Assembly: GCA_022360015.1 (NCBI GenBank)
Contig: JAKSDQ010000052.1
Coordinates: 62,001 to 126,000, forward strand
Reading direction: 5' to 3'
DNA length: 64,000 nt
From: Cytophagales bacterium
GTDB lineage: Bacteria; Bacteroidota; Bacteroidia; Cytophagales; Cyclobacteriaceae
The first letter of the stretch is position 1, and each line of letters begins with the position of its first letter. The notes under the pieces are model-generated. The model saw only the letters and a list, made by a program, of their open reading frames with translations. It searched no databases and was not told the DNA's origin. The translations under genes and the position numbers were made by a program. Positions 39,306 through 44,859 of the stretch are shown here, one piece after another.

Positions 39306-40541
39306 ATGATAGATATAAGTATTGCTGAACCCACCGTTGAAGAAAAAGAAGAAATCGTCGAAAAATGCCGCCAGCTAAAAGAAGTATTTGCCAAAAGGGC
39401 TCCAAAATATGATCAGGAAGGAAGCTTCCCCGTCGAAAACTTTGAAGATCTGAAAGCCTCTGGTTTGCTCGGTATCATGATACCGAAAGAATTCGGTGGT
39501 TTTGGAGCAGATTTTGTTACTTATACAAAGGCCTTGGAGCAACTTGCCATGGGTTGTTCATCAACGGCCCTGACCTTCAATATGCATAACATTGCCGTAG
39601 GTAGTATTGCAGAACTTAATCTCGAAGGAATCGGAGGAAGCAGGGGAAGGATCATGAAGGAATTCAGGGATTGGGTGTACCATCAATCAATCAATGAAAA
39701 AAAGGTATTTGCCTCTGCCTCTTCAGAACCTGGCATAGGGGCCCATTTCAGTAAATTGAAAACGACCTACCGGCGGGTAGATGATGGGTTTGTCATTAAT
39801 GGTATTAAATCATTTGTATCGATGGCCGGTTATGCTGATTATTATGTGGTGGCTGCAAAATCTGCCGACAGCACCAGTGAAATCCCGGCCATATCTTACC
39901 TGGTGGTGGAAAAAGAAAATCCAGGCACCCGTATCGAGGAGGTTTGGGATGTTCTTGGTATGAGGGGTACAGCTACCAATCCGGTATATTTTGAAAACTG
40001 TTCGGTACCTAAAGAAGCACTTTTTTTAGGTAGTGAGGGAATGGCACTATATAAAATTGCCAGGGAACCTCATTGGCTGGTAGGGGGTTATGTTGGGGTT
40101 TATTTAGGTATCAGTACAGCCACTTTTCAGTTTTTGATTGCATATTTAAAGAAGAAAAAGAAACCTGGCACCGACACGCCACTGAGCGAGGATCCAACCA
40201 TTCAATATAGAGTCGGAGCGCTGTTTTCCGCCTTGGAATCTGCCCGTGGCATTACCTACAATGCCGCAAGATTGGTCAAAGAAAAATTAGGCTCACAGGA
40301 AGCCAATAACGCCATTCATCATGCAAAATATTTGGTGAGTGAACTGGGGCCGTGGCTTACTTCACAGGCGATCAGGATGTGTGGGGCCAGCAGTCTTGCC
40401 AAGAGACTTCCCCTCGAGCGGTACTACCGGGACGCTCGCTGTGGTGGCTTAATGCCTGCTACCAGCGATGAATGTCTGTCTTATTTAGGGAAGGCAGCAT
40501 TTGGTACCGATCTCAGTAAACCTTCCGAAACCTACTGGTAA
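39306..40541 (+). CDS. Acyl-CoA dehydrogenase-fold flavoprotein (first of two)
   Basis: ASGLLGIMIPKEFGGFGADFVTYTKALEQLAMGCSSTALTFNMHN; FVINGIKSFVSMAGYADYYVVAAK; VLGMRGTATNPVYFENCSVP. Confidence 0.92.
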   Translation: MIDISIAEPTVEEKEEIVEKCRQLKEVFAKRAPKYDQEGSFPVENFEDLKASGLLGIMIPKEFGGFGADFVTYTKALEQLAMGCSSTALTFNMHNIAVGSIAELNLEGIGGSRGRIMKEFRDWVYHQSINEKKVFASASSEPGIGAHFSKLKTTYRRVDDGFVINGIKSFVSMAGYADYYVVAAKSADSTSEIPAISYLVVEKENPGTRIEEVWDVLGMRGTATNPVYFENCSVPKEALFLGSEGMALYKIAREPHWLVGGYVGVYLGISTATFQFLIAYLKKKKKPGTDTPLSEDPTIQYRVGALFSALESARGITYNAARLVKEKLGSQEANNAIHHAKYLVSELGPWLTSQAIRMCGASSLAKRLPLERYYRDARCGGLMPATSDECLSYLGKAAFGTDLSKPSETYW

Positions 40542-40555
40542 TATAAATTAGTCAT

Positions 40556-41716
40556 ATGCAACCTTGGGAAAATCCCGAAATTGATGCGATGAAGGGAAAA
40601 TACCATCAGCTTGCGCTTGATTATTTTTCAGGCGATTTCACTGAAAGAGACAAAACCGGGGATTTTTCCCTGCAGCGCTGGAAAAAGGCGGCAGAAATAG
40701 GCTTACTGAGCATGATGATGCCCGCTTCACTGGGAGGTATGGAAGTCCCTGTCACCCATGTAGTAGCCGCTTTTGAAGGATTTGGAGAAGGTTGCCGGGA
40801 CGGTGGTTTTGTGTATGCTTTGGGTAATCAGCTTTGCGGAATTCAATTGACGATTAAGCAGTTTGCCGATGAAGCCCTGAAAGAAAAATATTTACCTGAA
40901 TTGATGAATGGAAACCGGTTGGCTGCTTATGGATTCACAGAAGAAACTTCCGGAAGTGATGCTTATTCTATGCAAACCACTGCCACAGAAGAAGGAGATA
41001 ATTACCGGATCAATGGCCGAAAATGCTATATCACCAATGCCCCTTACGCAGATTCAGCCATTGTTTTTGCCAAAACTTCGGCAGCCAGGAGCCCTTTTAG
41101 CCTGACGGCATTTCTGGTGGACATGAATAATGAGGGCGCATCGCATGGCCGGGAATTCGAAAAAATCGGGCTGCGGACTGTTAGGATGGGAGAACTTGTT
41201 TTTGATAATGTTCTGGTGCCCAAATCAAACATCCTGGGTGGAAAAGGTGGCGGTTTGAGAGTTTTGGCTGAATCTACCGGCTGGGAAAGGGCAGTCCTCA
41301 TCTCAAGTGCCCTCGGGCCGATGAACAGGGGGCTCAAAGCATGTATTGAGCGGGCTAAAACAAGGAATCAGTTTGACAAGCCTATTGGGGCCTATCAGCA
41401 AATTTCTTCCAAAATTGCCGATATGGTGATGAGGCAAAGGTTAAGCAGGCAGGTAATTTATGATCTGGCCTCCAAACTGTCAAGTGGTAAATCCATGCAC
41501 ACCTGTGCACAGGACGCGGCCATCGCCAAACTTTTTGTTAGCGATAACTTTATCCGGTTTGAAATGGATGCCATGCAGATATTTGGTGTCAGGGGGTATT
41601 TACTGGAGTCATTTATCAACCGGGATTTAAGGGATAGTCTTTCTTTTAACATCTGGTCAGGTACTTCAGAAACACTCAGGAATACCATCGCCAAGCTTGA
41701 AGGTCTTCCGGTTTAA
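40556..41716 (+). CDS. Acyl-CoA dehydrogenase-fold flavoprotein, candidate prolyl-[carrier protein] dehydrogenase (RedW/PigA/PltE-like)
   Basis: RWKKAAEIGLLSMMMPASLGG; GFGEGCRDGGFVYALGNQLCG; YGFTEETSGSDAYSMQTTA; CYITNAPYADSAIVFAKT; Glu244 in GWERAV at the IVD-type base position; canonical C-terminal YEGT Glu replaced (IWSGTSE). Confidence 0.9.
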   Translation: MQPWENPEIDAMKGKYHQLALDYFSGDFTERDKTGDFSLQRWKKAAEIGLLSMMMPASLGGMEVPVTHVVAAFEGFGEGCRDGGFVYALGNQLCGIQLTIKQFADEALKEKYLPELMNGNRLAAYGFTEETSGSDAYSMQTTATEEGDNYRINGRKCYITNAPYADSAIVFAKTSAARSPFSLTAFLVDMNNEGASHGREFEKIGLRTVRMGELVFDNVLVPKSNILGGKGGGLRVLAESTGWERAVLISSALGPMNRGLKACIERAKTRNQFDKPIGAYQQISSKIADMVMRQRLSRQVIYDLASKLSSGKSMHTCAQDAAIAKLFVSDNFIRFEMDAMQIFGVRGYLLESFINRDLRDSLSFNIWSGTSETLRNTIAKLEGLPV

Positions 41717-43204: not shown

Positions 43205-43275
43205 CAGGTGCCTTCGACAGGTTAAAAACTTATCAGATAAATTGTTTGATATTTAATTAAATTTTAAGTTTTGCC

Positions 43276-44859
43276 ATGAGTTATGTACTGCAACAATTAC
43301 TGATAACCAGTGCGGAAAAGTATCCGGAAAAAGATGCTGTCATTTTTGGTGATGATAAGATTACCTATGCTGAACTGCACGACAAGACCAACAGATTGGC
43401 AAGTTTTATGACCCAAAATGGCGTCGACCGGGGCGACCGTGTCGGCATTTTTCTCAACAAATCCGTTGAGTCCATTATTTGCATATTTTCCATTTTAAAG
43501 GCCAATGCAGTATACGTGCCCCTCGACCCTGTTGCACCGGCTGCCAGAATCTCTTACATCATCGATAACTGCCAGATAAAATGTTTACTCACCTCCTCGG
43601 CAAAATCAAAGACACTCCCTGATATCCTTTCAAAAACAGCAGTAGAGACAATCATAGTTACAGACAACAGGCATGAGGTTGCAGAAGGTATTGATAAAAA
43701 GCCAATATTGTGGGAGGAGGTGCTGGCGGCCCGCTATGCAGGTGTACCTGAAATCAGAAATATTTCATCTGACCTTGCTTACATTCTTTACACTTCCGGT
43801 TCTACAGGTACCCCAAAGGGAGTAATGATTTCGCATTTGAACGCATTTACCTTTGTCAACTGGGTTGTAGACTACCTGAAGGTGGATGAAAATGACATTT
43901 TTTCCAACCACGCCCCCCTGCATTTCGACCTTTCCATATTGGACATTTTTTGTTGTATGAAAGTGGGAGGTACATTATGTCCTGTGCCGGAAACTTTGTC
44001 CATGTTTCCAATAAGGTTGTCAACATGGATACAGGATAACCGCATATCTGTCTGGTACTCTGTGCCTTCTATCTTATCAATGATGGTATTGCACGGACAA
44101 CCGGATCAAAAAGATTTTTCAAGTTTACGCATGATCATCTTTGCCGGTGAAGTATTTCCCGTTAAATATCTCCGTCAATTGATGACCCTAATACCGGGCA
44201 AACAATACATCAACCTGTATGGCCCTACTGAGACCAATGTAATCACCTATTACCGTGTTCCCCCGATTCCGCCCGATCAAACCAAACCAATTCCTATCGG
44301 AAAATGCTGTGAAAATATGGAGGTATTTGCCGTGACAAAAGAGGGAAAAATTGTCACGGAAGCAGGTGAAGAAGGGGAATTACTGGCCAGGGGCACCTGT
44401 GTGGCCCGGGGTTATTGGGGTGCTGAGGACCGGACCGGCAAAGTGTTTGTTCCCAATACCTTTCAGAAAAATTTTGATGAGAAAATATACAAAACCGGAG
44501 ACCTTGTCGCACTGAATGAAGATGGGGATTATGTTTACATTGGCCGTGTGGATCATATGATCAAAAGCCGCGGCTACAGGATAGAAATCGGGGAGATCGA
44601 AGCAGCACTTTACACGCATCCCTCGGTGAGTGAAGTTGCGGTAATCGCCATACCCGACGATTTGATCACCAACCGGATAAAGGCCGTGATTACCTTAAAA
44701 GCAGGTCATTTCCTGGAAGCAACTGATGTGCGCATGTATTGCTCCGAGAAAATTCCAAAGTATATGGTGCCGGAAATCGTGGAGTTCCGGCAGAGCTTAC
44801 CTAAAACCTCGACCGGCAAAGTTGATAAGCCGGCACTGATGAGGGATTCGGTGACATGA
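43276..44859 (+). CDS. Stand-alone adenylation-domain protein, predicted L-prolyl-AMP ligase
   Basis: A3 AYILYTSGSTGTPKGVMISH; A5 NLYGPTETN; A7 YKTGDLV; A8 GRVDHMIKSRGYRIEIGEIE; A10 STGKVDK. Pocket residues aligned by eye to GrsA-A: D235 L236 L239 Y278 I299 A301 L322 V330 I331 K517. Confidence 0.9.
   Translation: MSYVLQQLLITSAEKYPEKDAVIFGDDKITYAELHDKTNRLASFMTQNGVDRGDRVGIFLNKSVESIICIFSILKANAVYVPLDPVAPAARISYIIDNCQIKCLLTSSAKSKTLPDILSKTAVETIIVTDNRHEVAEGIDKKPILWEEVLAARYAGVPEIRNISSDLAYILYTSGSTGTPKGVMISHLNAFTFVNWVVDYLKVDENDIFSNHAPLHFDLSILDIFCCMKVGGTLCPVPETLSMFPIRLSTWIQDNRISVWYSVPSILSMMVLHGQPDQKDFSSLRMIIFAGEVFPVKYLRQLMTLIPGKQYINLYGPTETNVITYYRVPPIPPDQTKPIPIGKCCENMEVFAVTKEGKIVTEAGEEGELLARGTCVARGYWGAEDRTGKVFVPNTFQKNFDEKIYKTGDLVALNEDGDYVYIGRVDHMIKSRGYRIEIGEIEAALYTHPSVSEVAVIAIPDDLITNRIKAVITLKAGHFLEATDVRMYCSEKIPKYMVPEIVEFRQSLPKTSTGKVDKPALMRDSVT

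Follow-up and report, generated by a model that had tools for sequence, protein, structure and literature searches.

The window, that is, the whole 64,000-nucleotide stretch of a Cytophagales bacterium analyzed here (contig JAKSDQ010000052.1 of assembly GCA_022360015.1, positions 62,001 to 126,000), is sited on contig C290 of a 7.3-Mb genome (G000) and carries a set of five genes at the head of an exopolysaccharide (EPS) operon. Four of these, designated by their first nucleotide, constitute what we call the core: 39306 and 40556, encoding two proteins of the acyl-CoA dehydrogenase (ACAD) fold (ACAD1 and ACAD2, respectively), 41862, encoding a carrier protein, and 43276, encoding an adenylation enzyme. 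We propose tentatively, with a confidence that falls just short of even, that the core is an N-hydroxypyrrole cassette whose acyl group decorates the exported EPS. On the strength of the sequence comparisons, its likeliest product would be an N-hydroxypyrrole-2-carboxyl-S-carrier rather than a plain pyrrole thioester. While the N-hydroxypyrrole pathway is known, its EPS setting is new and apparently unreported.

In the proposed scheme, 43276 would activate L-proline and load it on the phosphopantetheine arm of the carrier, attached at Ser38. ACAD1, acting as a reduced-flavin N-oxygenase, would hydroxylate the pyrrolidine nitrogen, and ACAD2 would withdraw hydrogens to yield the N-hydroxypyrrole-2-carboxyl-S-carrier. 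An acyltransferase encoded in the operon, of FemAB or AAC(3) type, might then transfer the acyl group. The simplest acceptor would be an amino sugar unmasked by CE4-type deacetylases, and the EPS would be exported with N-hydroxypyrrole-2-carboxamide groups on it. This scheme starts from features that can be read in the proteins and their surroundings, namely the proline pocket, the Glu of ACAD2, the loss of the base in ACAD1, its ChmG-like kinship and the conserved EPS neighborhood, and from these we infer the N-oxygenation, the order of the steps and the transfer to a glycan.

A first-pass annotation of this DNA had placed five co-directional genes at the head of a polysaccharide operon, which agrees with the confirmed coordinates of all five open reading frames (+ strand), with their Pfam content and with the EPS genes that follow down to 60232. 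The Pfam matches comprise two complete ACAD folds, a PP-binding domain, an Acetyltransf_6/FemAB domain, and an AMP-binding domain with its C-terminal domain. Throughout the 39306-60232 run, which the five-gene set heads, the strand is constant and the intergenic gaps are mostly 1-150 bp.

A predicted proline-activating enzyme and its carrier

The free-standing adenylation enzyme (527 aa; 43276..44859, + strand) is a well-supported candidate for proline activation, with L-proline as its predicted substrate. Aligned with PDB sequences, from which the reference codes were also read, its specificity pocket is DLLYIALVIK. This compares with DLLYLALVC for 6o6e, which we take to be PltF, DLFYIAWVC for 7thn, presumably PigI (both entries are titled L-proline--[L-prolyl-carrier protein] ligase), and DLMTLCTVA for DltA. 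Over the pocket region, 43276 scores 119.5 bits against PltF, 70.9 against PigI and 61 against DltA. Nearly all of 120 relatives read DL[LF]Y[LIFV]ALV[ICV]K, nine of them exactly DLFYLALVCK, and the exact PltF-type code occurs in loci L036 and L049. Because the pocket is of the PltF/PigI kind and the scores point the same way, the D-alanine (DltA) or fatty-acid substrate that the first-pass annotation had named as refuting its proposal is disfavored, and we ruled both out as candidates on these grounds; its prediction of a stand-alone proline-activating enzyme fits the pocket. The match to the DltA model reaches 308 bits for a cut-off of 476. Membership of the exosortase A-associated acyl-CoA ligase family (TIGR03098) was likewise rejected, with 354 bits versus a cut-off of 592.

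The carrier (81 aa; 41862..42107, + strand) had been described as free-standing, with Ser38 in a VIDSLG motif, and both the PF00550 match and the alignment of its DSL motif with the carriers of known triads confirm this. A free-standing adenylation enzyme and a small carrier serving a surface polymer recall DltA/DltC, but the DltA pocket differs from that of 43276 at about half of the positions. Since G000 encodes two Sfp/ACPS-type phosphopantetheinyl transferases (PPTases) and three proteins with a flavin-reductase domain, a supply of both holo-carrier and reduced flavin can be accounted for.

Elsewhere in G000, on contig C110 (74798-82842, partly corresponding to locus L002), lies a second triad composed of an ACAD 39% identical to ACAD2, an adenylation enzyme 39% identical to 43276 and a carrier. 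It adjoins a 1390-aa nonribosomal peptide synthetase (NRPS) and a PPTase, its adenylation pocket is DILYLGVQCK, its ACAD has Asp in the Glu column, and there is no ACAD1 homologue beside it.

Two ACAD-fold proteins with distinct predicted roles

ACAD2 (386 aa; 40556..41716, + strand) is supported as a true prolyl- (or N-hydroxyprolyl-) thioester dehydrogenase of the ChmH/PigA/AnaB type. Its best PDB match is the prolyl-ACP dehydrogenase AnaB (4irn, 240 bits), followed by Bmp3 (6cxt), isovaleryl-CoA dehydrogenases and 5zw0, which we take to be PigA. The identity of 6cxt is as published (PMC11177257). The top two NCBIfam models are PigA (302 bits) and RedW (288 bits), both under their equivalog cut-offs. 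ACAD2 retains the catalytic Glu, the residue mutated to Ala in entry 6af6, as do 14 of 15 members of its family. In the tree, it falls in a clade with AnaB, PigA and the other triad dehydrogenases (support 100/100), within which its closest relative is the first ACAD of a Streptomyces plasmid locus (L107_ACADa, 100/100) rather than AnaB or PigA; the chm-type status of L107 is itself deduced from gene order.

The first-pass annotation regarded both ACAD-fold proteins as dehydrogenases, a description that fits ACAD2 only. ACAD1 (411 aa; 39306..40541, + strand) has Leu at the position of the AnaB/PigA Glu and Pro at that of the short-chain acyl-CoA dehydrogenase (SCAD) Glu. The same is true of its family: among 120 relatives, none has Glu in the AnaB/PigA column, where Leu, Val or other residues are found, and 119 have Pro in the SCAD column. 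With both catalytic-base columns lost, a role as second dehydrogenase is disfavored. ACAD1 is instead a probable prolyl-carrier N-oxygenase of the ChmG-like kind, as judged from its base columns, clade and fold. Its structural model is fairly confident (pLDDT 83), and the folds nearest to it are those of 5gj7 and of 5z8t, an entry that bears the title flavin-containing monooxygenase.

N-Hydroxypyrroles are rare, and it was not until 2024 that the enzymes making them were identified, in small-molecule pathways of actinomycetes. For chalkophomycin, ChmJ loads proline on ChmI, ChmG N-hydroxylates it, ChmH oxidizes the product to the N-hydroxypyrrole and ChmF releases it; ChmG is a KijD3-like protein of the ACAD fold with Met at the Glu position, while its separate partner ChmH keeps the Glu and is inactive alone on the prolyl-carrier (PMC11177257). 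ACAD1 is 39.7% identical to P0289, a 395-aa protein with an EPHWM motif from Streptomyces anulatus, a published chm strain. Since ChmG is 395 aa long (PMC11085572), P0289 is very probably ChmG, an identification that relies on species and length. The ACAD1 family and the Streptomyces Met ("EPHWM") group form one clade (97/93), with 5gj7 and other Glu-less relatives placed outside it, and identity to the ChmG-like clade is 39-40%.

Among 2017 matching plasmid records, the closest match to ACAD1 (39%, the next best being 34.8%) is the second ACAD of L107, from a Streptomyces sp. NBC_01369 plasmid. This locus (4382-9896), whose gene order corresponds to that of the published chm cassette, encodes a hydrolase, an adenylation enzyme with the non-canonical pocket DLFIAGLACK, a carrier, a Glu-bearing ACAD, a Met-bearing ACAD and a flavin reductase, followed by panD, a short-chain dehydrogenase/reductase and a phytanoyl-CoA dioxygenase. 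ACAD2 and ACAD1 co-branch one-to-one with the two L107 ACADs, both of which are long branches in the trees. This pairing of both window proteins with both L107 partners is the strongest argument for an N-hydroxypyrrole over a pyrrole.

The core resembles ChmGHIJ with ChmF (chalkophomycin) and HrmKLMN (hormaomycin), which likewise combine a proline-specific adenylation enzyme, a free carrier, and a Glu-bearing and a Glu-less ACAD. It shares the proline pocket, the carrier and the Glu-bearing prolyl-thioester dehydrogenase with the PltF/PltL/PltE, PigI/PigG/PigA and AnaC/AnaD/AnaB triads, but unlike these, which have a single ACAD, it retains a second, Glu-less one. The first-pass annotation had predicted a prolyl, dehydroprolyl or pyrrole-2-carboxyl thioester; a proline-derived thioester on the carrier is still what we expect, but because ACAD1 is Glu-less and groups with the ChmG-like proteins, the N-hydroxypyrrole-2-carboxyl form appears likelier than any of the three.

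A fragment of 64 residues, which matches the C-terminal region of ACAD1 at 69% identity, is encoded on contig C275 of G000 (56443-56634) and is perhaps the remnant of a second copy.

Conservation and distribution

The nearest loci are those of Agaribacillus aureus (protein identities of 62-91%; 78% for the adenylation enzyme) and Splendidivirga corallicola (40-82%; 67% for the adenylation enzyme), where synteny extends from 39306 through to the flippase gene. A Cyclobacteriaceae metagenome-assembled genome (MAG) also has the four-gene core (60%), and a Calditrichia MAG has it in a different gene order (65%). Conservation in these genomes argues that the gene arrangement is not due to chance.

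Orthologues of ACAD1 were obtained from targeted and metagenome scans. Scanning metagenomes with the ACAD1 alignment returned 79 loci, about 42 of which are true family members. Of the 20 loci that reach 60% identity and have no less than 4 kb of flanking sequence, 17 also hold the dehydrogenase, the proline-specific adenylation enzyme or the carrier, versus none of six more distant loci. In 401 genomes from the phylum Bacteroidota and 401 from the order, two partly overlapping sets, no ACAD1 was found beyond G000. A third ACAD of 572 aa accompanies 13 of the 20 close loci, and its orthologue in G000 (62%) is unlinked to the cassette (contig C69, 226905-228710). Relatives of ACAD1 at about 51% in L051, L054 and L057 share a different neighborhood, which contains neither an adenylation enzyme nor a carrier.

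A polysaccharide setting

The operon has everything that N-acylating an amino sugar would take: deacetylase-like proteins, an AAC(3)-like protein and two FemAB/GNAT-type acyltransferases (window features named from here on are on the + strand). The first of these acyltransferases, a candidate for the transfer to the glycan, belongs to the five-gene set (346 aa; 42164..43204; PF13480, PF02388 and, at 110 bits, below its cut-off, TIGR03019). The second (50242..51276) matches PF13480 and, again below cut-off, TIGR03019 (125 bits). The AAC(3)-like candidate (47045..47959; PF02522, 111 bits) is kept in L009, L010 and L012. It is preceded by a candidate CE4-like polysaccharide deacetylase (45955..47043), a cassette neighbor in the same three loci, which has no Pfam match and retrieves CE4 deacetylases at the top of a fold search; because the confidence of its model is low (pLDDT 57), this assignment is tentative. 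It is followed by a polysaccharide deacetylase (47982..48929; PF01522 at 22.5 bits, slightly under cut-off) that lies beside the cassette in L009, L010 and L025.

Further copies of the cassette occur in Bacteroidota, in Calditrichota and on many metagenome contigs, where glycosyltransferases, deacetylases, acyltransferases and sulfotransferases are frequent neighbors. Glycan loci that contain it include L009 and L010 (Wzc, Wzx), L012 (WecG-type glycosyltransferase, sulfotransferase, heparinase-like protein), L036 (GT4 glycosyltransferase, DegT aminotransferase) and L056 (GT2 and GT4 glycosyltransferases, asparagine synthase), while L022 and L025 keep GDSL/FemAB and deacetylase genes adjoining the cassette. 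From such conserved neighbors we infer that the acyl group would be attached to EPS, the least certain step of the scheme.

Delivery of a carrier-bound pyrrolyl acyl group to a sugar is known from clorobiocin and coumermycin. The logic would be similar in the window, with a polymer in place of an antibiotic as acceptor, but the candidates here are of FemAB/AAC(3) type, and no Clo-type acyltransferase was seen, although no dedicated search was made. The mix of adenylating enzyme, FemAB protein and deacetylase is also reminiscent of exosortase A (XrtA/PEP-CTERM) EPS loci, and the hydrolases 1 and 2 of those loci have hydr1/hydr2-like counterparts in relatives L012, L029 and L045. Unlike in XrtA loci, however, every XrtA-family score is under its curated cut-off, and no XrtA exosortase family was found among the window genes scanned. 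A literature search on pyrrole-acylated EPS found nothing relevant.

We also consider it possible, although doubtful, that this represents a widespread, undescribed EPS modification in which a ChmG/ChmH-type pair provides polymer-bound hydroxamate-like metal ligands (N-hydroxypyrrole-2-carboxamide) in Bacteroidota, Calditrichota and other environmental phyla. If true, bacteria would be able to place metal-chelating heterocycles on extracellular polymers, with the same flavoenzyme pair being a fixed part of polysaccharide loci in distant phyla. It would define a new class of glycan modification, offer a way to approach metal capture by biofilms, and give a role to a large protein family that at present has no annotation beyond "AidB-like acyl-CoA dehydrogenase".

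Alternative explanations

The window set differs from Chm/Hrm in its setting, an EPS operon that includes acyltransferases and deacetylases, with no hydrolase, NRPS or polyketide synthase adjacent, and in its hosts, which are Bacteroidota and Calditrichota, whereas Chm/Hrm are mainly from actinomycetes. Several observations weigh against an N-hydroxypyrrole cassette that serves EPS. The operon lacks a flavin reductase and a ChmF-like hydrolase, although hydrolases occur in some relatives. ACAD1 has Leu where ChmG has Met, and its identity to the presumed ChmG is no more than about 40%. No acyltransferase is kept in every locus (L012 has no FemAB by the cassette, L011 has a GNAT instead), and an NRPS beside the set in L012, L025, L029 and L056 suggests a peptide product in those lineages. 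Such neighbors, where an NRPS or NRPS-hydrolase and hydr1-like hydrolases adjoin ACAD1, would suit a cassette that makes N-hydroxypyrrole-2-carboxylate for a small molecule, e.g., a metallophore, its position in the EPS operon reflecting co-regulation or accident. The N-hydroxypyrrole products known so far are indeed small metabolites, chalkophomycin being a copper ligand (PMC11177257). We nevertheless think a small molecule the less likely product for the window, although a real rival: neither an NRPS nor a hydrolase is found in or near the operon, no homologue of the L012-type hydrolase is encoded in G000, and the acyltransferase and deacetylase neighbors are kept with the cassette across genera.

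That a plain pyrrole-2-carboxyl (or dehydroprolyl) group is placed on the glycan, with ACAD1 as second dehydrogenase or accessory, seems to us quite unlikely. The proline-specific adenylation enzyme and the Glu-bearing prolyl dehydrogenase are present, classical triads need only these and a carrier, and Leu instead of Met leaves room for another activity of ACAD1. Yet ACAD1 lacks both base positions, clusters in the ChmG-like clade, and accompanies the adenylation enzyme in many loci, although a plain pyrrole pathway would have no need for it. It is improbable that the two ACADs perform other chemistry, such as C-oxygenation or action on a substrate other than proline, the decoration being some other oxidized amino acid: the non-canonical pocket in L107, the flavin monooxygenase-type proteins that are the solved structures nearest to ACAD1, and the third ACAD that travels with 13 of 20 relatives would all be compatible with this, but the pocket in the window is a textbook free-standing-proline pocket.

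Remaining genes and related loci

The rest of the operon is made up of EPS genes. A DUF354 protein, glycosyltransferase/epimerase-like (44873..45931; PF04007; kept in L009 and L010), directly follows the adenylation gene, and a GDSL/SGNH-like esterase (49161..50204; weak PF13472; kept in L009, L010 and L022) lies between the second deacetylase and the second FemAB gene. Further downstream are genes for a Wzc-like EPS tyrosine autokinase/chain-length protein (51504..53990; TIGR01007, above cut-off), a Wzx-like flippase (54050..55432; PF01943), a sulfotransferase (55444..56352; PF00685), a GT4 glycosyltransferase (56461..57711; PF00534), a Wzy/O-antigen-ligase-like polymerase (57724..58962; PF04932, at cut-off) and a glycosyltransferase with a C-terminal GT4 domain (59522..60232; PF00534). 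In the long gap upstream of the operon, a small predicted membrane protein of 52 aa (38818..38976) is encoded, which is conserved at this position in L009 (73%) and L010 (62%).

Distant paralogues of 45955 and 47045 are adjacent on contig C4 of G000 (35721-37666) in the absence of the cassette, so this type of pair is also used elsewhere. In two Rhodobacterales plasmids, from Pseudohalocynthiibacter and Roseovarius (L114, 6700-13507; L119, 8700-15507), a carrier, an ACAD, a methyltransferase and an adenylation enzyme lie by YjbH/YjbF and a polysaccharide export gene; their adenylation pocket, DIFFIGSMCK, is not of the proline type, and we did not use these sets as evidence of a parallel. Finally, a conserved truncated condensation-adenylation-carrier-hydrolase protein with the pocket SIFHSGICCK adjoins ACAD1 in L012 (2956-7099), L025, L035 and L044, where it is partnered by a protein resembling the exosortase-A "hydrolase 1".

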